Assembly (NCBI GenBank): GCA_907163375.1
Contig: CAJQUW010005319.1
Coordinates: 1-64,000 of the forward strand
Source of the DNA: Prostheceraeus crozeri
Taxonomy: Eukaryota > Platyhelminthes > Polycladida > Euryleptidae
Reading direction: 5' to 3'
DNA length: 64,000 bases
The translations under genes and the position numbers were made by a program. Under the pieces are notes generated by a model. That model was not told where the DNA came from. It did no database searches and saw only the letters and a program-made list of their open reading frames with translations. Below, one piece after another: positions 37,226-62,991 of this stretch (the first letter of the stretch is position 1; each line of letters begins with the position of its first letter).

Positions 37226-37684
37226 ATGAGCAACATAAATGAGTTTTTGAAATTATATGGAACACAAACAACAACGAATTTCGATTTAAAGAAAATCGCA
37301 AATCAATTGGGAATAAAGAATTTTCATGTTCTAATGAGAGACGAATTACAATTGATCAAAAATAAGCCAACAATAACTATAAATTTCATAACAAATCTTC
37401 ATACGTCAGATGAAAAAGGAATACATTGGTCTGCAGGTATCTTTAATAAAAATCGAGATAATTACTAGTTCGACCGCCCGGAGGCTGAGAACTATTGGTT
37501 CGACTCTTATGGACTTCCACCTACAAACGAAGTAAAAAAATTACTTGGCAATGGAATTTATAATACATTTCAAATTCAAAAACCGGGAACTACTTATTGT
37601 GGTCAATTATGTCTTTATGTTTTATTTAAATTACAGGAAGGAGTACCATTTCTAGATATTATGTTAGAATTGAACGAACCGTAG
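37226..37684 (+). pseudogene. Adenain-type protease with an inserted stop (copy B)
   Basis: Homologue of the intact protease at 58253. The catalytic His (IHWSAG), Asp (FDSYGLPP) and Cys (YCGQLCLYVLF) are all present. After codon 80 about 30 bases are inserted, starting with TAG (37466-37468), and the frame then continues in phase to the natural stop at 37682. The extra segment is bounded by the direct repeat TTCGAC. The stop codon lies in the loop of a GAACC-GTA-GGTTC hairpin. Confidence 0.88.
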
Positions 37685-37728
37685 GTTCTATGGCTACGCG
37701 CTACGCCTAACAAGGGAATTTAATTCCC
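37676..37728. repeat. Hairpins at the protease stop codon (copy B)
   Basis: GAACC-GTA-GGTTC (37676-37688) has the TAG stop across its loop and right arm. A second hairpin GGGAAT-TTA-ATTCCC is at 37714-37728. The first is shared with copy D (58667-58679); the second and the GCGCTACGCC between are only in B. Confidence 0.85.
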
Positions 37729-37764
37729 GAAAAACGTTAGTTCCAATAATAATGATAATGATAA

Positions 37765-39078
37765 TTAAAAATCAGTTCGTTGTAATTCATTTTGATAAAA
37801 TCGGCCTCCGATATTTTCGTCATCTAAATCTTTGATTTCGTAAGTAATCGGATAAGTTTGATTAATTTTACAAACTTCAAATATCTCTTTCGTCCAGTAT
37901 CCGACGAACCCCTTTTCAAATTTATTCTTATATTTAAATATTGTAACTCTATCTCTGATTTTAAATTTCGGCTTAAGTTTCTTCAAATTCGGATTACTCT
38001 CATTCGAATAATTATTTTCGAATATTTTCTTTCGTATTAAATCAGGGTCGTCAGAAGCATTCTTTGGGGTTTCTTCAATACCAGAATGAACTTTATTATT
38101 GTACTCTTCTACAATTCCTGGTAATATCTTCAACCATTTCTGATTTCTTTGCTCAGTAAATTTCTTGAATAATTTATTTTTTAACGTCCGATTGAATCTT
38201 TCTATCACTACGGCCTTCCCTGCATTTTCAGTTGAATAAACAGTTTCAAATAGTGGTTGAACGTTTCGGTTATAAAATTCCGACCCTTTATCAACAAACA
38301 ATTTCCTTGGCTTTCTATTACTTTCTTTAAAGATTTCTTCAAACGAATATTTAACTGATAGACCACTTTTGTTTTTTAAAGGCTTTACCCAAGCGTATCG
38401 TGTATATAAATCTATAACGGTCAATGCGTATTTGTAGTCCCTTTCATTCGGCATATGAATAAGATCAGCACTCCAAATATCATCTTTATTAAATACTTTT
38501 ACTTTCAATAAATATCTAGGCCTTCTATATTCTTTGTGGATTTCGGACGCGTAGGTTCGAGCGTTGCTCTCAGACAGCTTTGCTGTCGTTTCATTTGCTG
38601 ACGGATCAATACCCTGACCGAATAATATTTCAGCTTGTAAAGATTTCTTAACAAACATTCTTTCAATTCTTTCCTTAAAGGAAGGATTCTGAATACTATC
38701 TAATTCTTGTATCATTTTCTTATCTGCTTCATGTCGAGAACTTAGGTCATGATTTCGGTAAGCTAAATCATGTCTGTAGGCGGCGGCGTCTACTCTGTTT
38801 ATTGGTTCTTCACCTGGTTTTGGATTATTATTTTCATCTAGTCTTATATCTAATCGAGTTCCTGGACCGGTATATGAATGACCAGGAAGATGTTTTTCTT
38901 TCGAATATTTACTCCAAATAAAGCCAGGAAAGTTTTCTAATGTTTTTTGTATGTCGGTACCTTCATAAATTTTACAATTTGAGTTTTTATTTTTGTTTAA
39001 TAGATAATTTAATAAATCTAAATTAGCAATTTTTAATTTAATTAAATTTTCGGAATTTGTGGAATTTGCGGAATCCAT
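37765..39078 (-). CDS. Phospholipase A2-integrase fusion (copy B)
   Basis: Intact 437-aa ORF with two domains. Residues about 50-125 form a parvovirus VP1-type phospholipase A2 domain, used by virions to breach endosomes: a GHSYTGPGTRLD calcium loop and the HDLAYR catalytic motif (about 108). Residues about 195-420 are a retrovirus-like DDE integrase: SADLIHM (D), KLFVDKGSEFYN (D), VIERFNRTLKNK (E), then a chromo/SH3-like tail (FKIRDRVTIFKYK). The domains are joined by a stretch encoded by two hairpins (38559-38587). The ATG follows TTTAAAA. Whether it was always one gene is uncertain. Confidence 0.9.
   Translation of the reverse strand: MDSANSTNSENLIKLKIANLDLLNYLLNKNKNSNCKIYEGTDIQKTLENFPGFIWSKYSKEKHLPGHSYTGPGTRLDIRLDENNNPKPGEEPINRVDAAAYRHDLAYRNHDLSSRHEADKKMIQELDSIQNPSFKERIERMFVKKSLQAEILFGQGIDPSANETTAKLSESNARTYASEIHKEYRRPRYLLKVKVFNKDDIWSADLIHMPNERDYKYALTVIDLYTRYAWVKPLKNKSGLSVKYSFEEIFKESNRKPRKLFVDKGSEFYNRNVQPLFETVYSTENAGKAVVIERFNRTLKNKLFKKFTEQRNQKWLKILPGIVEEYNNKVHSGIEETPKNASDDPDLIRKKIFENNYSNESNPNLKKLKPKFKIRDRVTIFKYKNKFEKGFVGYWTKEIFEVCKINQTYPITYEIKDLDDENIGGRFYQNELQRTDF
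38559..38587. repeat. Double hairpin at the PLA2-integrase junction (copy B)
   Basis: GAGC-GTT-GCTC (38559-38569) and GACAGC-TTT-GCTGTC (38573-38587), in phase with the gene. The same pair is in copy D (59547-59575). Confidence 0.85.
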
Positions 39079-39127
39079 TTTTAAAGATAAAAAAATTTTA
39101 AAAGATAAAATAAAAGTTTTACCGAAT

Positions 39128-39142
39128 CGGACTAAAGGTCCT
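39128..39142. repeat. Imperfect hairpin after the 161-aa gene (copy B)
   Basis: CGGACTAAAGGTCCTG is a version of GGACC-AAA-GGTCC with one mismatch, just beyond the stop at 39150. Copy D has a longer, perfect form. Confidence 0.65.
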
Positions 39143-39149
39143 GGGGTTA

Positions 39150-39635
39150 TTACCTTATCATACTAGGACTTAGATATATTCCAGAACCATCTTTAGTTTC
39201 CTTAATTTCAATTAAATCATCAACATTGTGGAGAATATTTCTAAGAACACGTTTTCCTTCATCAACTAATTTTAATTTACTAATAAAATTATCTACTACT
39301 CCGTCTCCCTCAGCAAATTTCTCTAACTCTCTATTATGACGTTTTTGTTCTTCTAATGCTGCCTTCTCTGATTTATTTTTATTTACTGCTTGGACAATAC
39401 CAGCTGTTCCACCTGCAACACTTCCTCCTGCTGCTATGCCACCTATTATTAGTGGAATTAATGGGAGAATCCCGCCATTCTTTTCTTCTTGTAATTGAAT
39501 ATTCTCTATCATTGGTTTACTTATGTAATACTTTTTTTTGTTAATCGTAATAGTTTTAGGGGTATTTTTGTCAACAATATTACGTAATTTTAATTCAACA
39601 GTTTTATTATTATTATTACTTTTCGCTTGCGACAT
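39150..39635 (-). CDS. Small hydrophobic virion-type protein (copy B)
   Basis: Intact 161 aa. The N-terminus is basic, the middle hydrophobic and glycine-rich (GGILPLIPLIIGGIAAGG, residues about 54-71), and the C-terminus is helical and ends GSGIYLSPSMIR. The layout is like the pX/pVI-type membrane-active minor virion proteins reported for adintoviruses and adenoviruses. The copy D homologue (60148-60633) is also intact and nearly identical. The ATG follows TATTAAAA. Confidence 0.75.
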   Translation of the reverse strand: MSQAKSNNNNKTVELKLRNIVDKNTPKTITINKKKYYISKPMIENIQLQEEKNGGILPLIPLIIGGIAAGGSVAGGTAGIVQAVNKNKSEKAALEEQKRHNRELEKFAEGDGVVDNFISKLKLVDEGKRVLRNILHNVDDLIEIKETKDGSGIYLSPSMIR

Positions 39636-39659
39636 TTTTAATAAAAAAATTTTAAGTCA

Positions 39660-39795
39660 CGAAAAATTTTAATCTATTCTAGTTATGAAAAGTTTTAAGT
39701 TACGAAAAATTTTAATCTATTCTAGTTATGAAAAATTCTTAAGTTACCAAAATTTTTAAGTTAACAAAAATTTTAATCTATTCTAGTTATGAAAA
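39660..39795. repeat. AT-rich tandem repeat in a spacer (copy B)
   Basis: TTTTAATCTATTCTAGTTATGAAAA occurs three times with a changing AAGTTACC linker, between the capsid and the 161-aa genes. Copy D has two copies. Confidence 0.8.
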
Positions 39796-39802
39796 AAAAT
39801 TA

Positions 39803-41150
39803 TTAATTAATCCTAGCCATCTTTCCATTAAGAATTTCAATAGAATATTTTACATCTTCTAGCAATAAACCATAAGCCATCAATGAAGTTGTAGAATCTT
39901 TTTTTTCAATATTAATTGTTACATCACAACCAGTCTTGATAATATCTTCAGATTGTGCACTTAAATCGAAACAGAAAACAGGATATAAATGTCTCCAATC
40001 TCCAGGAGTTAATTGTGGTTCAACTCCAAATTCTATACAAAGATTTCTATAAGCATCATATCCTTCCATAAATTGATTATTGGTATCATTGAATCTTAAT
40101 GGATCAATTGGATATCGGGTTTGATTTAAAGCAACTTGTAAACTTCGAATTGTGTTAATATGGAAAAGATTATTGTTCTTATCAAAACTTGGAGAATCAT
40201 TTCTTTGAAAAGTTAGTAATAAATATCTTGGAGTATTCGAAGTTCTAGTAAAATGCCAGTTAAATCTTTGTTCAGTAAAAGTTTCAGAACTAGCAGTACG
40301 CTTTAGAAAATTTACTGGAATTGGTTTGTTAGTATTTAATCTTTTTGCAATAGCTAATTCGACCTCTAAACTAGGAGAAATATGCTTTATCCACCATTCA
40401 AGTCTATCAATTTTTAAATATGCTTATTTTCCAGTCTTGCCAAAAAATATTAATTCATTATTTGCTTAATGAATTATTTGCTTGATGAATTATTAATTTA
40501 AATTTTAATTGATATGATATTTTGTCATAATCTAAATATCCGAATAATGGAGACAATGACCAATTTACTGTCTCTTTACTTTTCTTGTTAAATTCACGTT
40601 CTTCTTTATATGCACTGTTGTTTGTTTTATTTAAATGATTTGCAACATTTTCTACATCTTTCGCAATTCCTGCTGCATCTGTTCCAGCGTGAGATAAATC
40701 ATCTACAATTATACCATCATTAGTATCAGGAAACCAACCTTCGATTTCGTGCTTTTTATTATTTTCACCAATTGTTACAAATCTAAGCATTGTATCAATT
40801 ACACCTGGAGAATCACTTATTGTTTCTATATTTTGAGTTGCAACATCTAAACGCATTTGTGTAAATAATCTTGGAAAAAAATTATTCTCTAATGCAATAT
40901 TATCGCTATCTGGTAATGGTGTTGTAAAATTAGGATCACTATATAAAGAATATTCACAGTGTAAAAACGAATCAGGTAAATATAAATAACTCTGCTGATT
41001 ATCAACTTCAAAAATTAAATCACCTCCAGTATTTACTCTACTGGAAGATCCGGGATTCATAGCAATTCTAATATAGTCATTCTTTTTTTGATTATAACTG
41101 ACGAACGGAGGATCGTCTAATCTAAATTTATTTTCGATAAGCGAAGACAT
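39803..41150 (-). pseudogene. Family 1 major capsid protein (copy B), frameshifted
   Basis: Hexon-like double-jelly-roll capsid protein of about 450 aa, different from the family 2 capsid. The N-terminal part (41150-40458) includes GSSSRVNTGGDLIFEV, NFFPRLFTQMRLDVATQN and SLSPLFGYLDYDKISYQL. The C-terminal part (to 39803) includes FNWHFTRTSNTPRYLLLTF and HLYPVFCFDLSAQSED, a typical penultimate strand region. The frame is broken between 40500 and 40430, near a short AT-rich duplication. ATG after TTTTTAAAA. Confidence 0.85.
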
Positions 41151-41282
41151 TTTTAAAAAAATAATTTGACTTTTTTGTTTTTCTCACAGACAGAAAAAAT
41201 TTTTACTAAAATATAATTTTAGAATTTTACCAAAAAAATTATTAAAAAAATTTACTAAAAAAAATTTTACTAAAATATAATT

Positions 41283-41767
41283 TTAGAATTTTGCTTGACC
41301 ATTGCCTCTTATTTCTTCAATTGAACGTTTTATGGCTACGCCTGTTTTCTTCCCCTTTTTACTATCAGACGGAGCTCCGCTCCTCAAGGTTTCACCCCCT
41401 ACAGCTATGTTAGCAATTTTGTTTTTTGTTTCCTCTGAAAGTTTTTTTAATTTTTTAGTTCTTCAGAATCATTCTTAAGTTTACGAATAGTTTCTAGTTG
41501 TTTTAATTCGTTTTGAGACTTGACAGCATTTGATATTGCACTAGCTGTACTACCTATAGCAGCTGCTCCTTTGGCAGCAGATGTAATCAAATCTTTATTA
41601 TTTTTAATTAAGTTAACGATACTTCCAATACCAGAAAAGATACCAGCCCCTCCTTTTTGAATTGTTTCTACACTGTCATAATGGTAAACAGATTTCATAG
41701 TTGGTTCATGAGCAATTTTTTGATTTGAAGCAAAATGTTTAAGATTGTGTTTATAAATTATAGGCAT
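41283..41767 (-). pseudogene. Second small hydrophobic virion-type protein (copy B), frameshifted
   Basis: The N-terminus YKHNLKHFASNQKIAHEP is followed by GGAGIFSGIGSIVNLI and an alanine-rich helix (AAKGAAAIGSTASAI), then a charged coiled coil. A one-base loss near 41450 shifts the frame; the tail can be read to 41283. The hairpin GGAGC-TCC-GCTCC lies in the tail. It is a candidate minor virion protein; no family name is certain. Confidence 0.65.
41371..41383. repeat. Hairpin GGAGC-TCC-GCTCC (copy B)
   Basis: Perfect 5-bp stem, within the C-terminal coding part of the second hydrophobic protein. Copy D has GGAGC-TCT-GCTCC at 62474-62486. Confidence 0.8.
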
Positions 41768-41855
41768 TTTTTATGATTAAATTTGACTTTTGGGAAAAAA
41801 TATTTACGTTAATATTTGCGCTAAGATTTACGTTTATGATAAGGCAATAACCTGA

Positions 41856-41868
41856 GGACCTTTGGTCC
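41856..41868. repeat. Hairpin GGACC-TTT-GGTCC just after the fibre-like gene (copy B)
   Basis: Lies two bases beyond the stop codon (41871-41873). The same hairpin is at 62979-62991 in copy D, again two bases beyond the stop. Confidence 0.85.
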
Positions 41869-41870
41869 GA

Positions 41871-42757
41871 TCAAGATTTACGTTTGTGAATGGACAACAA
41901 CTTCGAGATAACTTTATTAATTGCCTGTTGCACTTTATCTATTGCGTCAAGTAGCGTATGATGTACTTTAATTTCTTTTCTATTAACTTGCATTTTCTGC
42001 TGATTAATCTTCAATGCCGTTTTAAGTGCATTTAACTTAATTTTAAGAACATCTAATTGTCTTTTAACAGAATCTAACTGTTCTTTATTTTCTTAAGAGT
42101 TTTCTTGTAAATTTTTCTTTAATTCATTTTCTAAATTGATTTTAAGATTTTTCATTTTATCAACTTTTTCATTAAGTGAGTTTACTTCATTTATTATTCT
42201 ATTCATCTTTTTCATTTGTTGAGTAATTTTAGAGCTTAATTCATCAACACTTTTTTGGAATGTAGTTTGTAACTGCTTTAATTTTTTTAAATTCTTTCAG
42301 GAAGTTTTTCTATTTCATCTTCTAATTGTTCTTTTAACATTTGTATCTGATGTTTATTTTTAATGACTGCAGATTTTAAATTTATAGAAAGTAATATTAA
42401 AATTTTTGATTGTTCTGAAATCTTTTTAAAAAGTTTTGCTATATCTGCTTCTAGCTCTCTATCCTTTTTATCAAGTTTTAATAATTTTTCGTTTAATGAT
42501 TTGTCATTAAGTTTAAGCAACTTTAATTCATTCATCAGTGGAACCAAAACATCGTTTATATATTTTTCTTTGAAGTCATTGATTTGTGTATCAACATATT
42601 GTTTATTTGTTAACTCTGTATTTTGTTGCGGAATAATAGAAAGATGCAATGGACCAGATAAAACGTCTCCAGTTTTCATGATATAATTTTCTATTTCTAT
42701 TTCTGATTCACGATTATTCGGGATATATGCACCTCCACCAACATTTGGTAACATCAT
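41871..42757 (-). pseudogene. Fibre-like coiled-coil protein (copy B)
   Basis: The N-terminal domain has KTGDVLSGPLHLS (about residue 30) and NKQYVDTQI, the pattern found at the base of phage tail fibres and other trimeric attachment proteins. The remainder is a long coiled coil. The frame changes near 42290 and there is a TAA near 42093; the protein would otherwise be about 290 aa. A host-attachment fibre is a plausible role, inferred from the motif only. The ATG follows GTTAAAA. Confidence 0.65.
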
Positions 42758-42832
42758 TTTTTAACAATAAAAGAATGATTTTTTTTCTAATAAAAATAAA
42801 AAAATAAAATTTTTTCTAATAAAAATAAAAAA

Positions 42833-44197
42833 ATGGAAAATCCAAATTTAAAAAAATCATATTCGCCCGTTTCATCCTGTTCTTCTTATTCGACGAGATC
42901 AACGGGATTTGATAATAAATGTTTTGATGATAATAATAATAGTAATCCATGTTTAGATGTAAATCTTTTATTCGAATTACAAGCAGAAATATTTAGAGAA
43001 CAGACTAAAGGTTTACCTTCTATAGAAACTAATTATTGTATTTTTCCAGGTGATCCATTTATAAAATTTATGGAGATTGTAAGCAAATACAATGATGTAG
43101 CTTATGTTGAACTGAACAAAGAAAATATGCTAATCATTGGTCATAATAATGTTTATGGATTCATTAGAGCAGTTTTACCGATCAGTAATACTGAGTGGAT
43201 AGAAAATGAAATTATCAATTATATCAATATTAAAGAATTAGTTAAAAAATTAAAATCTTTTTCGAAAGAAAAAATAAGATTATTTGTTGATGAACAAAAT
43301 CAATACAACATTCATATCGAGAGTAAAAAACATAATGAAGAATTATTATGTCAAGTATATTATAGAGATACTATTTATAAACAAGAAACATTAGAAATGC
43401 CCCAAAGATATGATGATGATACATATATAGGATTATATTCAAATTTAAATATCAATTTATTAAAATCTTACATAAATGGGTTAGCTCAACAAGAAAAAAT
43501 TTATATGTGGACAACACCTTATACTATTAACAATGACCATAATCATAATCATAAAAATTTTAAAGTATCTTATAATAATGATTTTAAAGAATCTTATAAT
43601 AATAATGATGATAATATAGATGATGATGATAATGTAGATGATGATTCTGAAACATCTGAAAAAGGTGTGAATGGTAACAAAGATTATAAAAATATTAGTA
43701 ATTATAAAAATTTAAGTGAAGAAAAATTTATATCACAACATGATATTAATACTACATATAATCAAAATTTATCTAAATTTCATTTTCTTACAATTGAAAA
43801 TAATAATGATGGAATAGTTGAAGATACTGTTAGACAACTATGTGTCGGGTCTACAAAATTTAAATTAGGATTTACATCTAATCAATTTAAAATTTTATCA
43901 TCTTTAATAAAAACTAAAAGTGATTCAGATTATGGTGGTGTTATTAAATTTTCCAAAAGAGATCAAAGACCAATATTTTTCTCTATTATATTATTATCAG
44001 ATAAAAAATGTAATTTAGAGTTAGATATTCCAATAAGAGAATGGTATCCAATCCCAAAAAGTGTAATTTATGATGCTGAAGAATCAATTTATGATGATGA
44101 TGATGAAGAATCAATTGATGATGATGATGAAGAATCAATAGTTAGTGAAAATAAATTTAAATTATCTTTTGATAAAACGTTATATGATAAAACTTAA
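42833..44197 (+). CDS. Acidic two-domain protein, possibly clamp-like (copy B)
   Basis: Intact 454 aa. Residues 70-230 (PFIKFMEIVSKYNDVAYVEL, NIKELVKKLKSFSKEKIRLFV) and 325-400 (KFKLGFTSNQFKILSSLI) have the strand-helix alternation of sliding-clamp (PCNA/UL42-like) domains. Between them is a low-complexity N/D/H-rich linker and at the end two DDDDEES repeats. It lies upstream of and parallel to DNA polymerase, which would suit a processivity factor. No signature motif proves it, so function is unassigned. Copy D begins the same gene at 63955. Confidence 0.6.
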   Translation: MENPNLKKSYSPVSSCSSYSTRSTGFDNKCFDDNNNSNPCLDVNLLFELQAEIFREQTKGLPSIETNYCIFPGDPFIKFMEIVSKYNDVAYVELNKENMLIIGHNNVYGFIRAVLPISNTEWIENEIINYINIKELVKKLKSFSKEKIRLFVDEQNQYNIHIESKKHNEELLCQVYYRDTIYKQETLEMPQRYDDDTYIGLYSNLNINLLKSYINGLAQQEKIYMWTTPYTINNDHNHNHKNFKVSYNNDFKESYNNNDDNIDDDDNVDDDSETSEKGVNGNKDYKNISNYKNLSEEKFISQHDINTTYNQNLSKFHFLTIENNNDGIVEDTVRQLCVGSTKFKLGFTSNQFKILSSLIKTKSDSDYGGVIKFSKRDQRPIFFSIILLSDKKCNLELDIPIREWYPIPKSVIYDAEESIYDDDDEESIDDDDEESIVSENKFKLSFDKTLYDKT

Positions 44198-44716
44198 TAT
44201 GATAAAACTTAATATTATAAAACATTATATGATAAAGAAAATAAAATAACTAAAGAACGTGAAATATATAATGATATATATTAACTCTCAAGTCCTTGAT
44301 ATTAGAATGTTTATATCTAAAATTAAAACACAATTTTTTTCTTTAAAAAATAAAAAAATGGAAAATACTAAGTTTTATTAAAACTTATGTAAAAAAAAGT
44401 TGCAAACAAAAAGAAGTTATCAATCTCATTTAAATAGTAAATTGCATTTACAAAAAGTAGAACGAGTTGATGAAGGAAATATATTAAAATTAAATAGTTA
44501 TAAAAACTACCTAGAAACATTGCCTACTGATATAAAAGTTAAAAAAATGTTTGATGATTATTCACATTCGGAATATAAAAAAGTTTTTAATAGTGAAGAT
44601 GAGACCCTACCAGATGGAAGATATTTATTTAGCGATACTGATGAATTTGATGAAGCTGAACGAACCGATGAAGCGGTAACAGATATAAAATATTTATTTA
44701 ATCAGTCTGTACATGG

Positions 44717-44747
44717 GACATCGGAGATGTCTTCCAGGGCTTCGCCC
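44717..44747. repeat. Double hairpin in the polymerase N-terminus (copy B)
   Basis: GACATC-GGA-GATGTC (44717-44731) and GGGC-TTC-GCCC (44737-44747), in phase with the reading frame. Nearly the same 35 bases occur in reverse orientation at 50811-50841 in an unrelated gene. Confidence 0.9.
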
Positions 44748-45589
44748 GTTGAACATAATGAAACCGATAAAAAATTTTCTGATATTCTAACCAACTTTTA
44801 TAATATATTTAAGAAATCTTTCAAATGTTATATGAATGTAGAAGTACTTTATACAAAAAATGGACCTGATGGAATTCCTGAAGAAATAATACAAGGACAT
44901 TTTACAAATTCACAAGAAATTCATAATGTAAATGATATACAACCCATATTTGAATCGATGATACTTAAATTAGAAAATTGTATAATTGAAGCCCAGTTAC
45001 GTGAATCTGGTTAAAGATTTGTTAAAATACTATCTAAGAAAATAGTAATTGATAAATATAAAAATAATACTGGTGGTAGTTATGTTCCTTTACCTTTTCG
45101 TTCTCCCACAAATAATCAACATAAAAAATGAAGATGATTATTGTTTTCTGTGGAGTATTATAGCACATTTACATCCCGCAGAATATCACAAAGAAAGACT
45201 AAGTCATTATGACAAAAAAGTATATATAAATGAGTTTGATCTCTCTGACGGCTTAGATGAATTTCCATATGATTATAATAGGTTAATAAAGTTTCATAAA
45301 AAGAATAAAAATTTAATAGAAGTAAATGTTTTTGAATTAAATGTGAATTATGTTTCTATTGGTAAAATTACACCACCTTACTCAGATTCAAAAAAATTTT
45401 ATTTGAATAATAAAAATTTATGTCAATCAGAAATAGTATATAATGATAGAGGAAATTACATGCATCATAATATTTTTTACCAAGGAAAAATAATGTGTAC
45501 TGAAAAATTTCAAATTGTGAAAACACTATCACCAATAATGATTAATCATAACAACCACAAAGGACGTAATTATAATTATAATTATGATT

Positions 45590-46000
45590 ACAATTATTCA
45601 TCTTTATCTTCAGAATATCAACAAAACTTAGAAAATTTAAATAAAAGTTTGCAAAAATGTAAAACAGATTATCAGCAAGAATTAAAAATGTTACTACAAG
45701 AATATCACCATAAATATCAAAATAAGATAGAAACAATTCAAAAATTAAATGAAGAAAATAATGAAGAAAATGAAGACAATAAAGAATTAAATAATGAAGT
45801 AAATGAAACCAATCAAAAAATAAATGAATGTTTAAACAAATGTCAACAACAATATAAATAACAATATGATAAAGAATATATTTATCAGCTACAAATATTA
45901 AATCAAAATTATCAACAGTCTGAAAAAGATTTACAAAGATATATCGACTTAACACATAAAATATATCAAGATAAATTTGAAAAACTAGAACAAACAAAAC
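45590..46000 (+). other. Coiled-coil insert in the polymerase N-terminal region
   Basis: About 130 residues rich in N, Q, E and K with heptad-like spacing lie between the DDYCFLWSI region and the zinc finger. The in-frame stop at 45859 falls in it. I do not know such an insert in other Polinton polymerases. Confidence 0.6.
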
Positions 46001-46297
46001 AACCAGCACAAGCGAATATATTATATTATCAGGGTCATTTTATATTGTGTAAAGATGTTTCTATATTTACAAAAACTTCAGATAATGCTAATTTTTCCTG
46101 TCTCCAATGTATGACGAGCTTTAGAACTAAAGAAGAAATGAATAGACATTTGGAGAATTGTCAACAAAATGAAGCAGTCAGAAAGACATTTCCAAAAGAT
46201 GATTATTTAATATATAATAGACATTATTTGAAAAATAAAGTACCCTTTACTATTTATTGTGATTTCGAAGCATATAATGTTGATATGACACAAAATC

Positions 46298-46380
46298 GAA
46301 CCGAAGGTTCTAGGGCTTCGCTTGATTCTGAAAATGATAATTCTGAAAATGGTACGGGCCAAGCCCTAGAACCTTCGGTT
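46298..46380. repeat. Paired inverted hairpin units in polB (copy B)
   Basis: GAACC-GAA-GGTTC followed by TAGGGCTT (46298-46318), and the reverse complement of the same 20-odd bases at 46357-46379. Both are in phase, placed directly after the Exo I motif. Confidence 0.88.
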
Positions 46381-46721
46381 TATAAATATGAAAAAAGTGA
46401 AGCTGAGCAAAGTAAAGAAAAATATTTATTTGAACAAAAACCATTATGTTGGGGAATGTACATTCATTCAAATTATCCTGAATTATTTAAATCAGAATAT
46501 TATCGATACTATGGTGAAGATAGTTCAGAAATGTTTACAAAGAAAGTAGAAGAATTACAAGGTCGCTTTTCACAATTGCTTGAAACAAATATACCAGTGC
46601 TTCCATTAACGGATGAAGAAAAAATTAATTTTGTTAATGAAACAAATTGTTATTACTGTGGAAAAGAATTTACAAAAAAATATAAAAATGGCAAAGGTAG
46701 ATATCTTGATAAGCGAAGCGG

Positions 46722-46732
46722 CGGCTCTGCCG
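46722..46732. repeat. Hairpin CGGC-TCT-GCCG in polB (copy B)
   Basis: Preceded by AAGCGAAGCGG, similar to the loop of the hairpin at 16-74. It adds residues between the cysteine pair and the DHDH motif of the HNH-like insert. Confidence 0.75.
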
Positions 46733-47140
46733 ACAAAGTAAAAGATCATGATCATCTAAATGGATTATATAGAGGTGCAGCACATAATTCTTGTAATCTT
46801 AATGCTAATAAATTTAAATATAATTTTGTTCCTCTATATTTCTACAATGGTTCTAAATATGATTTCCATCTAGTAATGAAAGATTTATTTTCATCTGAAA
46901 AATTACAACAACAACAAATAAATGTACTATGTAAAACAGAAGAAGAATATTTTTCAATGCAATTAGGTTGTATTAGAATTTTAGATGCATTTAGATTTTT
47001 TACTCCTTATTCATTAGATGTTATGGGAAAAACTTTGAAATCTGAACAATGTAAAATACTAAATAAATATAATTTAAAACCTTTAAAAGGAATATTTCCG
47101 TATGAGTGTATGAGTACATAACTGGAGATAAAACCTGTGG

Positions 47141-47173
47141 TTCACAGTCGAAGACTGATTTTAATTCTGTGAA
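47141..47173. repeat. Nested hairpin in polB (copy B)
   Basis: CAGTC-GAA-GACTG (47145-47157) inside an outer TTCACAG/CTGTGAA stem. It sits just upstream of the EEKQLPPINKF stretch, the same site as the 16-74 hairpin in copy C. Confidence 0.8.
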
Positions 47174-51652: not shown

Positions 51653-51758
51653 TTTTAAAATATAATATTTGAATTTTGTGGTAACATTGGAATACAGCAA
51701 AAACATTTTACTGAACAAATTATTTTTTTATTGCTTTGTTGTCTGTCATCTTTTCGCT

Positions 51759-52453: not shown

Positions 52454-53052
52454 TTTTGAAGAAATATTTTTAGTCACATAATTTTAGTTATCTCATATTT
52501 TAAAAACCTGAAAATGGATTTAAAAGACATTTTTAAAATTACCATTTTTTTGATGTTGTGGCTTGGAACGGTCATGATTTTAAGGGGGGTGAAAATTTTA
52601 ATTCTCAAATTTTGAGATTCTTAACTTTTATGATTTTCGGTGTCTTTGAACGGTCATGATTTAAGAGAGAGAAAAAATAATCTTAATCTCAAATTTGAGA
52701 TTCTTAACTTTTATGATTTTCGGTGTCCTTGAACGGTCATGATTTGAGCAATGAAAAATGTCATAATCACACACTTGAGATTTTGAAAAAATTGAAAAAT
52801 TGGGTATTTTTAAAAACGCCTAAATTTATGAATTTAGGTCTCCATAACCTGAAAAAGGGTTCAAATTCATGAATTTATGTCGTTTTTAAAAATACCATTT
52901 TTTCAAAAAATGGTACTTTTTAAATGGTCTAAATTCATGTATTTAGGTCTTAAAAACCTGAAAAAGGGTTCAAATTCATGAATTTATGTCGTTTTTAAAG
53001 ATACTATTTTTTGAATTTTATGGAGTCCTGGAGCGGTCTTTTACCCATTACT
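52310..53052. repeat. Right terminal inverted repeat of copy B
   Basis: Reverse complement of 35165-35880; the final bases are ...TTACCCATTACT. It has about 27 extra bases within the membrane protein coding part. Confidence 0.92.
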
Positions 53053-56318: not shown

Positions 56319-56834
56319 AGTAATGGGCAAAAGACCGTTCCAGGACACCATAAAATTCAAAAAAATAGTATCTTTAAAAACGACATAAATTCATGAATTT
56401 GAACCCTTTTTCAGGTTATGAAGACCTAAATTCACAAATTTAGGCGTTTTTAAAAATACCCAATTTTTCAAATTTTTCAAAATCTCAAATTTGTGATTAT
56501 GACATTTTACTCCCAAAATCATGACCGTTCCAGGTCATGTAAAACCGGACACCGAAAATCATAAAAGTTGAGAATTTCAAATTTGTGATTATGATCATTT
56601 TCTTGCTCAAATCATGACCGTTCCAGGTCATGTAAAACCGGACACCGAAAAATCATAAAAGTTGAAAATCTCAAATTTGTGAATTACAATTTTTACCTTG
56701 AAAATCATGACCGTTCCAGGTCATGTAAAACCGGACACCGAAAATCATAAAAGTTGAGAATTTCAAATTCATGAATTTTATCCATCTTTTAGGTTTTTAA
56801 AATATAACATGTGACTAATAATATTTCTTTAAAA
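56319..56834. repeat. Left terminal inverted repeat of copy D
   Basis: GACCGTTCCAGG occurs at 56333, 56525, 56626 and 56709, the inner three as GACCGTTCCAGGTCATG followed by AAAACCGGACACCG. These look like iterated binding sites. Confidence 0.85.
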
Positions 56835-57100
56835 ATGGAAGAAACAAAAATGGAAGAAACCGCAAGAATATATCCTTCGTTATCATATGAAATGGATATT
56901 GCAAAACACAAAGATAGAGTACGTTATATGAAAGATAAGGAATCTCATTTATTATTAAGATTAGAGCATTATAAAAATTAAGAATGTGACACAAGGCGTT
57001 TTTTGACACAAAGCATGTTTAACAATTTCTTTAGGCGCTCTCACTATTGTCATTTCATCTGGCGTTCTTACAATTCTAGTAGTTGCTACAGCTTTGTGAT
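56835..57100 (+). pseudogene. Decayed membrane protein gene in the left end of copy D
   Basis: Starts like 35766 (TTTAAAA before the ATG) and is readable through KHKDRVRYMKDKESHLLLRL to a TAA near 56979. Degraded sequence then corresponds to the membrane segments (GALTIVISSGVL...) up to about 57100. The terminal repeat therefore once included more of this gene than in copy B. Confidence 0.8.
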
Positions 57101-57253
57101 ACAATTAGATTTTAGTTGTACGTTAGGGAAGTTGTTTTAATTCTTACCAGCACGTCAGCACAACCACATGACGCCAAAGCATCTGGCAGCTGTTTTCACT
57201 TCTCTCTCTCCTGTCATTGTTCCGTGTGCGCTAGAAGAAAGTACTCATTTGCA

Positions 57254-57921
57254 ATGTCTTCCGTCAGCAAAATAGAGAGAGAATTTTGTTGCTTCGTGGA
57301 TCAAGTTGTGCCTCTCAAAACGATATCAACAAAATTTATTCTTGAATCACTAAGAAAGAAACAGAAGACGAGTGGAAACGAAGAAGATAAAAAGAGAGAA
57401 GTGTTTGAAATAATCCGAGATTCATTCAAGGATGTTGACAGCAGCAATTTACCTGTATTTCTCGAGAAAAAAGATTTTTTAAGTGTTTCATCGTGCATCT
57501 CGTCATTGAATAAACTCATTGCTTTCGAGAAAATGACACATCGGAATCTTCTACGTTGCTATATTTCGCAAGGAGAAGTACTTCAGCGACTGAAGTTATT
57601 GTCTAATATGAATTATACAAAATTCGTGAAAGAGTTAAATGAGACCCGTAAAATAAAGTTTTCACGTTCATATGTGACATTACTGATCAAATGATTCAAA
57701 TTATCAAAGAACTATTCAAACTTAGCCAATTCTTCTCTATCAATTTACTTTGTGATGAAGAATTTTGCTCATCTTGAAGATTATATTGATCGTGAAAAAG
57801 AGGAGGAACACCAAAGAATAGCAGAATCCATATTTGATTCATCCAATGTGCAACAAACTGAACAACAACAACATGCGCAACATACTGGACTCACGCAGGA
57901 ATTAGAAGACTTGCAAACGTG
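57254..57921 (+). pseudogene. Unrecognised gene found only in copy D
   Basis: The ATG at 57254 opens a 146-aa frame (SSVSKIEREFCCFVDQVV..., helical, charged), ending at 57694. A second frame from about 57730 to 57921 encodes DYIDREKEEEHQR and a Q/H-rich end, probably the continuation after a frameshift. The upstream frame extends to 57116 with a cysteine-rich stretch. Base composition is closer to host DNA than to the AT-rich element. Copy B has the PPTY gene instead. I do not recognise the family; a captured host gene is possible. Confidence 0.5.
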
Positions 57922-57926
57922 AAATT

Positions 57927-58238
57927 CTACTTCATAAGTAACAAGTAGTTACATTTATTGCAACTTATTTGCGTGGAGACTGAAAAATTACAATGGCATT
58001 TTCAAATTGGATTTCTGTTTTCATATAAATGTTGGACTCTACTTCATAAGTAACAAGTAGTAACATTTATTGCAACTTATTTGCGTGGAGACTGAAAAAT
58101 GACAATGGCATTTTCAAATTGGATTTCTGTTTTCATATAAATGTTGGACTCTACTTCATAAGTAACAAGTAGTAACATTTATTGCAACTTATTTGCGTGG
58201 AGACTGAAAAATGACAATGGCATTTTCAAATTGGATTT
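57927..58238. repeat. 112-bp tandem repeat, 2.8 units
   Basis: Units begin CTACTTCATAAGTAACAAGTAG at 57927, 58039 and 58151, almost identical. Each contains ATGACAATGGCATTTTC, so the apparent upstream start of the protease (58211) is repeat sequence. Confidence 0.93.
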
Positions 58239-58252
58239 TTCTTTCATTTAAA

Positions 58253-58675
58253 ATGACTGACCTGATCGAGTTTTTTAAATTATATGGAACAGAAACAACA
58301 ACGAATTTTGATCTAAAGAAAATCGCTAATCGATTAGGAATAAAGAATTTTCATGTCCTAATGAGAGACGAATTACAATTGAACAAAAATAAGCCAACTG
58401 TAAATTTCATGACGAATCTTCACACTTCAGACCAAAAAGGCGTACATTGGTCAGCAGGTATCTTTAGTAAAAACGGAGATAATTATTATTTTGACTCATA
58501 CGGACTTCCACCTACGAATGAAGTCAAAAAATTACTTGGAAATGGAATTTATAATACGTTTCAAATTCAAAAACCGGGAACAACTTATTGTGGTCAATTA
58601 TGTCTTTATGTTTTATTTAAATTACAGGAAGGAGTACCATTTCTTGATATTATGTTAGAATTGAACGAACCGTAG
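58253..58675 (+). CDS. Adenain-type cysteine protease, intact (copy D)
   Basis: 140-aa maturation protease with His in VHWSAG (about residue 66), Asp in YYFDSYGLPP (about 81) and Cys in YCGQLCLYVLF (about 113). I chose the ATG at 58253, which follows TTCATTTAAA as in copy B; the ATG at 58211 lies in the tandem repeat. It is unrelated in sequence to the family 2 protease beyond the catalytic pattern. The stop is in a GAACC-GTA-GGTTC hairpin. Confidence 0.9.
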   Translation: MTDLIEFFKLYGTETTTNFDLKKIANRLGIKNFHVLMRDELQLNKNKPTVNFMTNLHTSDQKGVHWSAGIFSKNGDNYYFDSYGLPPTNEVKKLLGNGIYNTFQIQKPGTTYCGQLCLYVLFKLQEGVPFLDIMLELNEP

Positions 58676-58679
58676 GTTC
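58667..58679. repeat. Hairpin at the protease stop codon (copy D)
   Basis: GAACC-GTA-GGTTC with TAG (58673-58675) inside. Same as 37676-37688. Confidence 0.88.
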
Positions 58680-58717
58680 TATGGCTACGCTTAATAATAA
58701 TAATGATAATTAAAAAG

Positions 58718-60042
58718 CTAAAGCTCAGTTCGTTGTAATTCATTTTGATAAAATCGGCCTCTGATATCTTCATCATCTAAATCTTTGATTTCGTAAGTAA
58801 TCGGATAACTTTGATTTATTTTAGAAATTTCAAATATCTCTTTCGTCCAGTATCCGACGAAGCCTTTTTCAAATTTATTCTTATATTTAAATATTCTAAC
58901 TCTATCTCCAATTTTGAATTTCGGCTTAAGTTTCTGCAAATTCGGATTACTCTCATTCGAATAATTATTTTCGTTCGAATAATTATTCTCGTTCGAATAA
59001 TTATTTTCGAATATTTTCTTTCGTATTAAATCAGGGTCGTCAGAAGCATTCTTTGGGGTTTCTTCAATACCTGAATGAATCTTATTGTTATACTCTTCTA
59101 CAACTCCTGGTAATATCTTCAACCATTTCTGATTTCCTTGCTGAGTAAATTTCTTGAAATTTTTATTTTTTAACGTCCGATTGAATCTTTCTATCACTAC
59201 GGCCTTCCCTGCATTTTCAGTTGAATAAACAGTTTCAAATAGTGGCTGAACGTTTCGGTTATAAAATTCCGACCCTTTATCAACAAACAATTTTTTGGCT
59301 TTCTCTTACTTTCTTTAAAGATTTCTTCAAACGCATATTTAACTGATAGACCACTTTTGTTTTTTAAAGGCTTTACCCAAGCGTATCGTGTATATAAATC
59401 TATAACGGTCAATGCGTATTTGTAGTCCCTTTCATTCGGCATATGAATAAGATCAGCACTCCAAATATCATCTTTATTAAATACTTTTACTTTCAATAAA
59501 TATTTAGGCCTTCTATATTCCTTGTGGATTTCGGACGCGTAGGTTCGAGCGTTGCTCTCAGACAGCTTTGCTGTCGTTTCATCTATCCCCTGACCAAAAA
59601 GCATTTTTGCTTGTAAAGCTTTCTTAACAAACATTCTTTCAATTTTTTCTCTAAAGGAAGGATTCTGAATACTATCTAATTCTTGTATCATTTTCTTATC
59701 TGCTTCATGTCGAGAACTTAGGTCATGATTTCGATAAGCTAAATCATGTTTATAAGCGGCGGCGTCTACTCTATTTATTGGTTTACTATTTTCTCTAGGT
59801 GTGTTATCATCGTTTAATCTTAAATCTAATCTTGTGCCGGGGCCAGTAAAATTATGCCCAGGTAAATGTTTCTCTTTCGAATATTTACTCCAAATAAAGC
59901 CAGGAAAGTTTTCTAATGCTTTTTGTATGTCACCTCCAATATGCTGATAATTTGAGTTTTTATGTACTTTTAAGAGATAATTCAATAAATCTAAATTAGA
60001 AATTTTTAATTTAATTAAATTTTCGGAATTTTTAGAATTCAT
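58718..60042 (-). pseudogene. Phospholipase A2-integrase fusion, frameshifted (copy D)
   Basis: Same architecture as 37765-39078. The PLA2 domain has HNFTGPGTRLDLR and HDLAYR; the integrase domain has SADLIHM, DKGSEFYN and VIERFNRTLKNK. One base is missing near 59290, splitting it into 60042-59197 and 59290-58718. A 9-codon EN-NYSN unit is repeated three times near 58960-59010 (once in B). Confidence 0.9.
59547..59575. repeat. Double hairpin at the PLA2-integrase junction (copy D)
   Basis: Identical to 38559-38587; hence inserted before copies B and D separated. Confidence 0.85.
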
Positions 60043-60093
60043 TTTAAAAGATAAAAAAATTTAAAAGATAAAATAAAATAAATGTTTTACCTA

Positions 60094-60140
60094 ATCGGAC
60101 CAAAGGTCCTGAGGCTTTAGCCGATCAGACAAAAGGTCCT
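60094..60140. repeat. Hairpin cluster after the 161-aa gene (copy D)
   Basis: GGACC-AAA-GGTCC (60097-60109) and GGCT-TT-AGCC (60113-60122) enclosed by ATCGG/CCGAT, then an imperfect GACAAAAGGTCC. Same composite design as 5614-5649. Confidence 0.88.
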
Positions 60141-60147
60141 CAGGTTA

Positions 60148-60633
60148 TTACCGAATCATACTAGGACTTAGATATATTCCAGAACCATCTTTAGTTTCTT
60201 TAATTTCAATTAGATCATCAACATTGTGGAGAATATTTTTAAGAACTCGTTTTCCTTCATCAACTAATTTTAATTTACTAATAAAATTATCTACTATTCC
60301 GTCACCCCTAGCAACTTTCTCTAGCTCTCTGTTATGACGTTTTTGTTCTTCTAATGCTGCCTTCTCTGATTTATTTTTATTTACTGCTTGGACAATACCA
60401 GCTGTCCCACCTGCAACACTTCCTGCAGCTGCTATGCCACCTATTATTAGGGGAATTAATGGGAGAATCCCACCATTCTTTTCTTCTTGTAATTGAATAT
60501 TCTCTATCATTGGTTTACTTATGTAATACTTTTTTTTGTTAACCGTAATAGTTTTAGGGGTATTTTTGTCAACAATATTACGTAATTTTAATTCAACAGT
60601 TTTATTATTATTATTACTTTTCGCTTGCGACAT
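60148..60633 (-). CDS. Small hydrophobic virion-type protein (copy D)
   Basis: 161 aa, homologue of 39150-39635, intact, with the GGILPLIPLIIGGIAAAG segment and the GSGIYLSPSMIR terminus. A candidate membrane-active minor virion protein. Confidence 0.75.
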   Translation of the reverse strand: MSQAKSNNNNKTVELKLRNIVDKNTPKTITVNKKKYYISKPMIENIQLQEEKNGGILPLIPLIIGGIAAAGSVAGGTAGIVQAVNKNKSEKAALEEQKRHNRELEKVARGDGIVDNFISKLKLVDEGKRVLKNILHNVDDLIEIKETKDGSGIYLSPSMIR

Positions 60634-60758
60634 TTTTAATAAAAAAATTTTAAATTAGGAATTTTTAATCTATTCTAGTTATGAATAAATTTTAAATTAG
60701 GAATTTTTAATCTATTTTAGTTATGAAAAAAATTTTAATCTAAGAATTTAATTAACTT

Positions 60759-60882
60759 ATCGGAGCGAAGCTCCTCGAGGCTTCAGCCGATCGGACCAAA
60801 GGTCCTCAGGTTACTAACCTATCGGAGCGAAGCTCCTCGAGGCTTTAGCCGATCGGACCAAAGGTCCTCAGGTTACTAACCT
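60759..60882. repeat. Duplicated hairpin array at the capsid stop (copy D)
   Basis: Two 62-bp units each contain GGAGC-GAA-GCTCC, GGCTT(C/T)AGCC and GGACC-AAA-GGTCC. Copy B has no such sequence at the corresponding place (39795-39810). The capsid stop codon (60876-60878) is formed by the array. Confidence 0.92.
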
Positions 60883-62210
60883 ATCCTAGCCATCTTTCCA
60901 TTAAGAACTTCAATAGAATATATTACATCTTCCAGCAATAAACCATAAGCCATCAATGAAGTTGTGGAATCTTTTTTTCAATATTAATTGTTACATCACA
61001 ACCAGTCTTGATAATATCTTCAGATTGTGCACTTAAATCGAAACAGAAAACAGGATATAAATGTCTCCAATCTCCAGGAGTTAATTGTGGTTTAACTCCA
61101 AATTCTATACAAAGATTTCGATAAGAATCATATCCTTCCATAAATTGATTATTGGTATCATCGAATCTTAATGGATCAATTGGATATCGGGTTTGATTTA
61201 ATGAAACTTGTAAACTTCGAATTGTATTAATATGAAAAAGATTGTTGTTCTTATCAAAACTTGGAGAATTATTTCTTTGAAATGTTAGTAATAAATATCT
61301 TGGAGTATTCGCAGTTCTAGTAAAATGCCAGTTAAATCTTTCTTCGGAAAAAGTTACTGAACTAGCAGTACGCTTTAGAAAATTTACTGGAATTGGTTTG
61401 TTAGTATTTAATCTTTTTGCAATAGCTGTTTCAATGTCTAAACTAGGAGTAATATGCTTAATCCACCATTCAAGTCTATCAATTTTTAAATATGCTTTTT
61501 TTTCCAGTTTTACCAAAAAAGATTAATTCATTATTTGCTGTACGATGAATTATTAACTTAAATTTTAATTGATATGATATTTTGTCATAATCTAAATATC
61601 CGAATAATGGAGACAATGACCAATTAACTGTCTGTTTACTTTTCTTGTTAAATTCACGTCTTTCTTTATATGCACTATTGTCTGTTTTATTTAAATGTTT
61701 TGCAATATTTTCTACATCTTTCGCAATTCCTGCTGCATCTGTTCCAGTGTGAGTTAAATCATCAACAGTTATACCATCATTAGTATCAGGAAACCAACCT
61801 TCGATTTCATACCTTTTTTTTATTTTCACCAATTATTACAAATCTAAGCATTGTATCAATTACACCTGGAGAATCACTTATTGTTTCTATATTTTGAGTT
61901 GCAACATCTAAACGCATTTGTGTAAATAATCTTGGAAAAAAATTATTCTCTAATGCAATATTATCGGTATCTGGTAATGGTGTTGTAAAGTTAGCATCAC
62001 TATATAAAGAATATTCACAGTGTAAAAACGAATCAGGTAAATATAAATAACTCTGCTGATTATCAACTTCAAAAATTAAATCACCTCCAGTATTTACTCT
62101 ACTGGAAGATCCGGGATTCATAGCAATTCTTATATAGTCATTTTTTTTTGATTATAACTGACGAACGGAGGATCGTCTAATCTAAATTTATTTTCGATAA
62201 GCGAAGACAT
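60876..62210 (-). pseudogene. Family 1 major capsid protein (copy D), frameshifted
   Basis: As 39803-41150. Start ATG 62210 after TTATAAAA. Breaks near 62140 (poly-T run), 61820, 61500 (poly-T run) and 60965, all at homopolymers. The last residues MARIG differ from copy B (MARIN) because of the hairpin array. Confidence 0.85.
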
Positions 62211-62330
62211 TTTTATAAGAAATAATTTGACTTTTTGTTTTTCTCACAGACAGAAAATTTTTTTACTAAAATATAATTTTAGAATTTTACCAAAAAAATT
62301 TTACTAAAATATAATTTTAGAATTTTACTA

Positions 62331-62421
62331 GACCAGCTCCGCTACAGCTTTGCTGGTTAAACTGAAGGTTGCTGCTCACGCCATTGCCTCTTATTTCTTC
62401 AATTGAACGAACCGTAGGTTC
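62331..62421. repeat. Hairpins in the 3' end of the hydrophobic gene (copy D)
   Basis: ACCAGC/GCTGGT enclosing CAGC-TTT-GCTG (62332-62357) and GAACC-GTA-GGTTC (62409-62421). Copy B has TCAATTGAACG uninterrupted at about 41317-41327, an empty site for the second one. Confidence 0.88.
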
Positions 62422-62473
62422 AATTGAACGTTCTATGGCTACGCCTGTTTTCTTTCCCTTTTTACTATCAGAC

Positions 62474-62486
62474 GGAGCTCTGCTCC
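62474..62486. repeat. Hairpin GGAGC-TCT-GCTCC (copy D)
   Basis: Counterpart of 41371-41383; only the loop differs, the stem is conserved. Confidence 0.8.
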
Positions 62487-62936
62487 TCAAGGTTTCCCCA
62501 ACAGCTATGTTAGCAATTTTATTTTTTGTTTCCTCTGAAAGTTTTTTTAAATTTTTTAGTTCTTCAGAATCATTTTTAAGTTTACGAATAGTTTCTAGTT
62601 GTTTTAATTCGTTTTGAGACTTAACAGCATTTGATATTGCACTAGGTGTACTACCTATAGCACCTATAGATGTAATCAAATCTTTATTATTTTTAATTTA
62701 GTTAACGATACTTCCAATACCAGAAAAGATGCCAGCCCCTTCTTTTTGAACGGCAGCTGCGGTGCCTAGGAACTTTTGTGTTCCGACTGTTTCTACACTG
62801 TCATAATGGTAAACAGATTTCATAGATGGTTCATGAGCAATTTTTTGATTTGAAGCAAAATGTTTAAGATTGTGTTTATAAATTATAGGCATTTTTTAGG
62901 ATTAAATTTGACTTTTGGGAAAAAATATTTACGATC

Positions 62937-62991
62937 GGCTAAAGCCTCTGAACAAGGTTCTATTGGTTAGTAACCTGAGGACCTTTGGTCC
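62937..62991. repeat. Hairpin cluster beyond the fibre-like gene (copy D)
   Basis: GGCT-AA-AGCC (62937-62946), GAAC-AAG-GTTC (62950-62960) and GGACC-TTT-GGTCC (62979-62991). Copy B has only the last one, which lies two bases after the stop codon in both. Confidence 0.88.

Follow-up and report, generated by a model that had tools for sequence, protein, structure and literature searches.

Double hairpins of 22 to 34 bp as a probable mobile family inside Polinton DNA of the flatworm Prostheceraeus crozeri

The window and its Polinton copies

The window analyzed here is a stretch of 64,000 nucleotides from the polyclad flatworm Prostheceraeus crozeri (contig C4421; genome size 2.05 Gb, 14,165 contigs), in which host DNA of about 33 to 41% G+C is interrupted by three copies, called B, C, and D, of one A+T-rich Polinton (Table 1). 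The host DNA also holds piggyBac-, hAT-, and reverse transcriptase-like fragments. A preliminary description had pointed to a family of small GC-rich hairpins in the Polinton copies that looked mobile. Our analysis supports this view, with a correction: the mobile unit is a double hairpin, i.e., two GC-rich hairpins joined by 2 to 5 nucleotides (nt), 22 to 34 bp in all. These units very probably form a non-autonomous mobile family that multiplies inside Polinton DNA.

The carrier has the features of a Polinton (Maverick), namely, a type-B DNA polymerase (polB), an rve integrase, an A32-like ATPase, terminal inverted repeats, and a duplication of about 6 bp. In the complete copy B, Pfam domains identify the A32-like ATPase and the integrase, the latter fused to a PLA2-like (phospholipase-like) domain, and the inverted terminal repeats (35165-35851 and 52368-53052) are 98.5% identical. 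Another protein is presumably the capsid protein; it had no Pfam hit, and Pfam did not confirm capsid genes. This putative capsid protein had at least 150 scored matches of 94 to 100% identity, from 9722 first-look candidates that were scored in part, so the Polinton has at least 150 copies and probably far more. Neither it nor the ATPase had relatives in the viral_contigs collection.

A long host segment is duplicated in the window (5875-17351 and 25669-56324, 94 to 99% identity). An empty host site matching the copy B insertion lies at 14233-14238, within the duplicated segment, and suggests a 6-bp target duplication. Only one of the two host duplicates contains Polinton B, the other having an empty site, so Polinton B probably inserted after the segment was duplicated.

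The double hairpin and its distribution

Hairpins were counted as perfect stems of at least 5 bp, with at least 3 GC pairs and a 3-nt loop, and compared with 200 composition-matched shuffles. Copy C has 1 (shuffle mean 0.19, maximum 2), copy B has 8 (mean 0.67, maximum 4), and copy D has 11 (mean 0.46, maximum 3). The total is exactly 20 where "some twenty" had been described, and every hairpin given as an example is present. The host stretch 5875-35164 (29 kb) has 8 such hairpins against a shuffle mean of 4.5 (maximum 10), and 53053-56318 has none. Among loop lengths, the excess is by far greatest for 3 nt. Lesser excesses occur in the Polintons for 6-nt loops in D (4 versus 0.47) and 7-nt loops in B (2 versus 0.05; stems with at least 4 GC), and in host DNA for loops of 2 nt (11 versus 4.3), 4 nt (9 versus 5.0), and 6 nt (10 versus 4.0). 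Double arrangements, in which a second GC-rich hairpin lies within 6 nt, number 1, 3, and 6 in C, B, and D versus means of 0.0, 0.03, and 0.0 in 100 shuffles (maxima 0, 2, and 0); the host stretch has 0 versus a mean of 0.1. Density in the Polintons is thus far above that of the shuffles, and chance or base composition was rejected as the source. Twenty 2-kb pieces taken at round coordinates on eight contigs contained 10 triloop hairpins in their 40 kb, none with stems of types F1 to F4 (see below); two of the pieces had a match of 240 to 250 bp to fetched loci. Two other origins were set aside: no Rfam family matched the window at the gathering threshold, and the window has no tRNA from which the units could derive.

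The double nature of the unit is clearest in insertions and deletions (indels) of 16 to 90 bp among the three window copies and 20 fetched 10-kb regions, L083 to L102, which had been picked around places with F1. These indels fall into two classes, one A+T-rich with a broad length range and the other GC-rich with a mode at 30 to 39 bp (134 of 239 GC-rich calls). Two or more hairpins were present in 125 of the 171 GC-rich inserts of 24 to 40 bp, compared to 19 of 171 after shuffling; in 20 of 50 inserts of 35 to 45% GC (1 of 50 after shuffling); and in none of 93 A+T-rich inserts. The pairing of hairpins that had been described therefore holds.

About ten sequence types were seen, and the type names are ours. 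F1 is CGGAGC-GAA-GCTCC-tct-GGCTTTAGCCG, F2 is CGGACC-AAA-GGTCC-tc-AGGTTACTAACCT, F3 is CGAACC-GAA-GGTTC-ta-GGGC-TTC-GCCCG, and F14 is GACATC-GGA-GATGTC-ttcca-GGGC-TTC-GCCC. We counted 122 triloop hairpins across 146 kb of Polinton sequence from regions picked around F1. Of these, 81 have a loop of the GNA type on one strand (58 GAA, 9 GGA, 7 GTA, and 7 GCA), 28 have AAA/TTT, and 13 have others. Counted once per sequence, GNA occurs in 5 of 11 distinct stems (binomial probability 0.002) and in 7 of 17 distinct stem-loops (0.0006). Minihairpins of the form C-GNA-G are exceptionally stable in single-stranded DNA. The concept of extraordinarily stable short hairpins is traced back to 1989 in the relevant part of PMC10527192.

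The types also share parts. The half GGGC-TTC-GCCC is common to F3 and F14, and the half GGCTTTAGCC is common to F1 and a GGAAC-type unit. F3 and F14 alternate at the same four sites in different copies (near 46300, 44605, 44711, and 52487), as if the left half had been exchanged in place. Counts of partners per half overstate the shuffling, because the partner lists include point variants and neighbors from adjacent units; units do adjoin one another in clusters. Variation per site is higher in loops than in stems in five of six types, the exception being F8, with 4 copies.

Genome-wide, the pattern GGAGCGAAGCTCC was found at 6453 places versus 24 for its reversed control, and GGAGCNNNGCTCC was found at 10630 places versus 190, with a GAA or GGA loop on one strand in all 50 matches listed. 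The exact F1 28-mer occurs at 2366 places and the exact F14 31-mer at 1761, giving 4127 exact units, whereas neither reversed control occurs at all. Elsewhere, the F1 pattern had no match in viral_contigs or genome_contigs and the F3/F4 pattern had none in viral_contigs; a 15-mer matched 74 stretches of viral_contigs, which is about chance level by a rough estimate rather than a computed control.

All sampled F1 loci lie in Polinton DNA (8 of 8 and then 40 of 40, hence 48 of 48; in the set of 40, copies B, C, or D match more than half the length of every locus). So do all 20 sampled F14 loci, in which, with the unit masked, the flanks of each match B, C, or D. None of the sampled F1 and F14 loci was in host DNA. 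Likewise, all 75 F1 to F4 hairpins in L083 to L102 are within 60 bp of Polinton-homologous DNA, a figure biased by the choice of these regions around F1. Within the 20 F14 loci, the identical 31-mer occupies eight sites that are not homologous and differ in their flanks. The long polB frame holds four of them (near 44605, 44711, 46300, and 48709), and the other four lie at 50811, beside 41632-41799, near 39300, and in the terminal region near 52487.

The hairpins had been described as confined to the Polinton family of the window (family 1). The sampled loci bear this out as far as host DNA is concerned, but strict confinement to one family is doubtful. A divergent Polinton-type polB in L091 (7433-9808) and L098 (544-2289) carries, in its coding region, tandem 30-bp hairpin pairs of its own, in which GGGAC-AAA-GTCCC adjoins a GCA-loop hairpin; L091 has this arrangement three times. 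This polB may mark a second carrier with a separate set of units, and the phenomenon may be wider than the window's Polinton family.

Filled and empty sites and units within genes

We listed 47 position clusters that occur in both filled and empty states, although 14 calls were unmapped, a few clusters are tandem repeats rather than units, and some sites are split into two clusters. The empty sites given in the preliminary description mostly stand up to alignment. At 50811, copy B has a clean 38 bp (50811-50848) that copy C lacks, and the empty state is common to copy C, the protein P0001 (94% identical), and P0002. At 44717, the residues that the unit encodes are missing from the protein P0014 (65% identity over the aligned part), in a 16-column gap, and several DNA copies are empty. 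Judged from these relatives, the empty state seems to be the older one at both sites. At three polB sites, the protein P0016 has either no counterpart of the copy B unit or a peptide that belongs to a different unit type. The site at 5614-5649, said to be empty in B and D, has a clean extra 30 bp compared with B; compared with D, the alignment is too poor to read. At 60759-60882, copy D has 152 bp (60731-60882) between homologous flanks where copy B has 74 bp, with a 72-bp alignment gap and no GC-rich island in B. The extra sequence reported in D at 62409-62421 is 21 bp long (62398-62418) and in part a short direct repeat; another copy has a clean 30-bp insertion there. The same exact sequences thus occur at unrelated loci with filled and empty alleles, and simple deletion, the alternative offered in the preliminary description, is not upheld.

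Insertion left short duplications at most junctions. We compared 72 distinct junctions, taken from 173 calls whose flanks agreed in at least 19 of 20 letters. A slide of the gap by at least 2 bases is possible in 54 of them, including three tandem repeats with a slide of 15, compared to 17% when the same inserts are placed at random. Slides are mostly 0 to 5, and a two-base, mostly A/T duplication fits many sites. The duplicated letters differ by site (AT, AA, AC, TG, GTT/AAC, TTA, and CAG). AT stands on both sides of 2339 of the 2366 exact F1 cores, but these are not 2339 separate events because many of the cores represent one inherited terminal-repeat site.

Many units lie within genes. Of 177 GC-rich inserts of 20 to 45 bp, 114 are in frames of at least 150 codons and 57 are in no frame of 70 codons or more; the remaining six, of the class in between, were left out. 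Lengths are multiples of three for 107 of the 114 inserts in long frames versus 22 of the 57 outside (and for 5 of the 6 in between), so the inserts in frames appear to be translated, not skipped. Translational bypass, which reportedly occurs in the mitochondria of Magnusiomyces, was accordingly rejected for the in-gene inserts.

The units have several open frames, and in-gene F3, F6, F8, and F14 sites mostly use a hydrophilic one, giving peptides such as RTEGSRASP, KRSDGSAV, QADGSRTKS, and TSEMSSRASP. In four long frames (L085, L093, L094, and L102; 1504 to 1565 codons), the zinc-finger part that corresponds to the open reading frame (ORF) 44400-45014 is joined with polB, with unit peptides inside; the L093 frame holds five (two F14, two F1, and one F3). 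In these four frames, the ORF with the 44717 unit is the start of the polB frame, so the two genes that share the nearly identical pair 44717-44747 and 50811-50841 are polB and the 50807 gene. The pair itself was confirmed; relative to the genes, both members have the same sense, in different frames.

Table 1. Polinton copies and hairpin units in the window
Feature	Position	Strand	Remark
Polinton copy B, complete	35165..53052	.	Self-BLAST of window; Pfam domains
Polinton copy C, right part only	1..5874	.	Self-BLAST; DNA_pol_B_2 match
Polinton copy D, left part only	56319..64000	.	Self-BLAST
F1 double hairpin, terminal repeat of copy C, AT on both sides	5616..5647 (core 5618-5645)	+	Empty in copy B
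F4 double hairpin, GTA loop, copy B	37676..37700	+	Homologue 58667-58690 in D; site empty in L101
Double hairpin GAGC-GTT-GCTC / GACAGC-TTT-GCTGTC in integrase gene	38559..38587	+	Homologue 59547-59575 in D
F2-like double hairpin, 31 bp, between ORFs 37765-39078 and 39150-39635	39124..39154	+	Empty in L098
F7 double hairpin, copy B	41371..41396	+	Homologue from 62474 in D; site empty in L084, L099
F2 unit with worn second hairpin, copy B	41842..41868	-	Homologue 62965-62992 in D
F14 double hairpin, 39-bp in-frame insertion, ORF 44400-45014 (polB start in other copies)	44711..44749	+	Empty in L093, L102; absent from protein P0014
F3 double hairpin, in frame in polB gene	46298..46324	+	Same site has F14 in other copies
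F3 double hairpin, opposite orientation, 30 bp, in frame in polB	46352..46381	-	Empty in L100
F6 double hairpin, 24 bp, in frame in polB	46713..46736	+	AA duplicated
Overlapping F5-kind hairpins in polB	47135..47157	+	30-bp insertion at site in other copies
F14 double hairpin, 38-bp insertion, 3' end of ORF 50807-51718, replaces C terminus	50811..50848	-	Empty in copy C; absent from P0001, P0002
61-bp composite of hairpin units, copy D, site matching 39124 of B	60093..60153	+	Empty in L098
F1-F2-F1-F2 cluster, four double hairpins, copy D	60759..60882	+	Absent from copy B
48-bp GC-rich insert holding hairpins, copy D	62333..62380	+	Absent from B
Extra 21 bp with GAACC-GTA-GGTTC hairpin, copy D	62398..62421	+	Absent from B
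36-bp GC-rich double-hairpin insert, copy D	62750..62785	+	Absent from B; AC duplicated at site in L091

The Polinton copies differ in other respects as well. The genes from the ATPase through the 50807 gene form a block whose orientation in C (1898-4554) is opposite to that in B (49073-51670). The polB gene of copy C contains, at 15-77, a long GC-rich hairpin of about 17 bp around a tandem AAGCG repeat; this hairpin does not resemble the double-hairpin units. A 21-bp tandem repeat, GGGAGTTTATACCTCCCGAAC, at 49926-49967 (the end of ORF 49953-50684) and near 3635 in L102, varies in copy number among Polinton copies. Some copies have other genes beside polB, in A+T-rich parts of L084, L087, L094, and L095 that do not match copies B to D; those of L094 include an A32-like ATPase of 513 codons and a repeat-rich gene of 296 codons. 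These unmatched parts contained no triloop hairpins like those of the family.

Possible routes of movement and known systems

Identical units at unrelated sites argue for movement by copying, and the replication of the carrier offers a possible route. The Polinton polymerase, presumably protein-primed as is usual in the family, would also displace strands and so would expose single-stranded DNA during replication. The exposed strand could fold into two stable minihairpins with C-GNA-G or AAA loops, and the folded unit might then be copied into nicked or gapped DNA where two A/T bases form the target, either by template switching or by a hairpin-recognizing nuclease supplied in trans. Such a route would account for the presence of the units in Polintons and their absence from host DNA, and copying on displaced single strands would also agree with the preferred loops and the exchange of halves. 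We give the whole statement, a mobile double-hairpin family together with this replication route, a probability of about 0.7. The route considered by itself is tentative, at somewhat below even odds.

Several points weigh against this interpretation. A nuclease or transposase acting in trans is a serious rival. The insertion of the Polinton itself probably left 6 bp, not 2, so its own integrase is unlikely to be the mover. Duplication is not found everywhere, as 18 of the 72 junctions slide by only 0 or 1 bp, and slides of 3 to 5, seen in 34 of 72, are more common than a strict 2-bp rule predicts. The A+T-rich indels of the same frames are likewise mostly multiples of three (88 of 106), which makes the keeping of frame a matter of ordinary selection on genes. 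In F1a, F2, F3, and F14, stems have more changes that disrupt pairing than compensatory ones, and in four of six types the spacer and the end letters are at least as variable as the loops, so that older copies show only weak conservation of the fold. The folding parameters used contain no GNA bonus (the DNA set gives the same energy for all triloops of a stem, and the RNA set does so for all but one), so the special stability of GNA loops is taken from general background. Finally, shared ancestry of the copies means that the 72 junctions, 114 inserts, and 122 hairpins cannot be treated as independent, and most regions were picked around F1 or F14.

The strongest alternative, though we consider it unlikely, is that a hairpin-recognizing single-strand nuclease (HUH/Y1-like) or a homing-type nuclease moves the units, much as has been proposed for repetitive extragenic palindromes (REPs) and REP-associated tyrosine transposases (RAYTs). 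The hairpin form, the pairing of hairpins, the copies within genes, and the shared halves do resemble REP arrangements as set out in sections of PMC3733652. Against this, Pfam found no such domain in the Polinton proteins scanned, a subset of the ORFs (10, plus 9 of the window and loci), and no constant GTAG-like tag stands beside the units, the flanks of which vary. Target duplication, moreover, is not known to be the rule in single-strand transposition.

A little less probable is the view that the units are minimal miniature inverted-repeat transposable elements (MITEs) that a DNA transposase from the host or a helper virus mobilizes. This has been discussed for pithovirus and pandoravirus repeats, and palindromic repeats with dinucleotide duplications are reported for pithovirus in the portions of PMC10664404 that deal with them. 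Short, mostly A/T duplications and thousands of exact copies would suit such elements. They would not readily explain two separate hairpins within 22 to 34 bp, types that have no terminal inverted repeat in common beyond a few end letters, duplicated letters that change from site to site, or the finding that none of the sampled loci was in host DNA.

Two further explanations carry very little weight. In Mimivirus and the virophages, hairpins mark transcript ends and polyadenylation (the hairpin rule), and some of the units here do lie between genes or at a stop codon (39124 and 50811); that the units are functional signals of this kind is nevertheless highly improbable, given that many are translated within long open frames and that the same site may be filled or empty among closely related copies. 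Least probable of all is that the hairpins are immobile and were made in place by quasi-palindrome correction or snap-back synthesis, with gene conversion producing the present/absent pattern: polymerase errors at inverted repeats can create perfect hairpins, and gene conversion among so many copies is likely, but local events cannot account for the exact F14 31-mer at eight non-homologous sites with different flanks, which already contradicts this explanation.

If mobile double hairpins do copy themselves within Polintons, one kind of mobile DNA lives on another, virus-like kind and supplies viral proteins, the DNA polymerase included, with short new peptides. One could go further and see in the double hairpins a new kind of hyperparasite and perhaps the smallest mobile DNA known from nuclear genomes: a 22- to 34-bp unit of two hairpins that would replicate only within a virus-like element, on its protein-primed single strands, rewriting the proteins of its carrier in frame and evolving by half swaps, with each Polinton family of the host having its own set. 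We regard this as speculative and rather doubtful, although the second polB with its own hairpin pairs is a hint that Polinton families carry separate sets. A search of the open-access full-text literature on Polintons, viruses, and GC clusters found no earlier report of such units in Polintons; PMC5799277 and PMC12220804, in the parts that bear on the subject, concern other things. The movement of GC clusters has been an open question for decades. Here, the very many sister copies of one carrier in a single genome provide filled and empty sites by the dozen, along with several unit types, the target letters, and exchanges of halves, from which the rules of movement can be measured directly.

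Known systems resemble the Polinton units to different degrees. The Rickettsia palindromic elements, to which the hairpins had been likened, are palindromes inserted in frame in unrelated genes, and this part of the likeness holds; size does not agree, as the passages on them in PMC10969869 give about 150 bp, in bacteria and with no double minihairpin described. REPs (PMC3733652, in part) are palindromes of 20 to 40 bp, some in genes, for which a single-strand mover has been proposed, but they have a constant GTAG or CGTC tag and, for the GTAG repeats, a Y1 transposase, neither of which was seen with the Polinton units. The M1 and M2 repeats of pithovirus are also palindromic, have massively invaded a double-stranded DNA virus, and have target duplications; according to the same portions of PMC10664404, they measure about 140 nt and are intergenic, unlike our shorter, two-hairpin units, which also occur in genes.

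The likeness to organellar GC clusters holds best. A GC-rich palindrome in A+T-rich DNA, sporadic presence, a short duplication, and the merger and shuffling of units are all found here; organelle residence is not, as all sampled loci are in Polinton copies of the assembly. The mitochondria of Allomyces reportedly harbor GC-rich double-hairpin elements in spacers and sometimes in genes. A paper on the repetitive hairpin-forming elements of sponge mitochondria (PMC2800124) describes, where it treats them, GC-rich double hairpins that also lie in spacers and sometimes in genes, although in organelle DNA, and states that the Allomyces elements lack flanking duplications, whereas most Polinton-unit junctions have one. 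The closest known system is that of the yeast mitochondrial GC clusters (Wu and Hao 2015, PMC4478555), GC-rich palindromes in A+T-rich DNA with filled and empty sites, for which the pertinent sections report flanking repeats of AG or ACT, more changes in loops than in stems, and the merging and shuffling of units. The Polinton units match them in the short duplications at 54 of 72 junctions, in halves that are shared or replaced, and in loops that vary more than stems in five of six types. They differ from them, as those sections portray the yeast clusters (mitochondrial, mostly intergenic, and 42 bp long for GC42), in being 22 to 34 bp long, often within genes and in frame, and with GNA or AAA loops. 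By analogy, then, the Polinton units work like organellar GC clusters, and the likeness is one of form and behavior.

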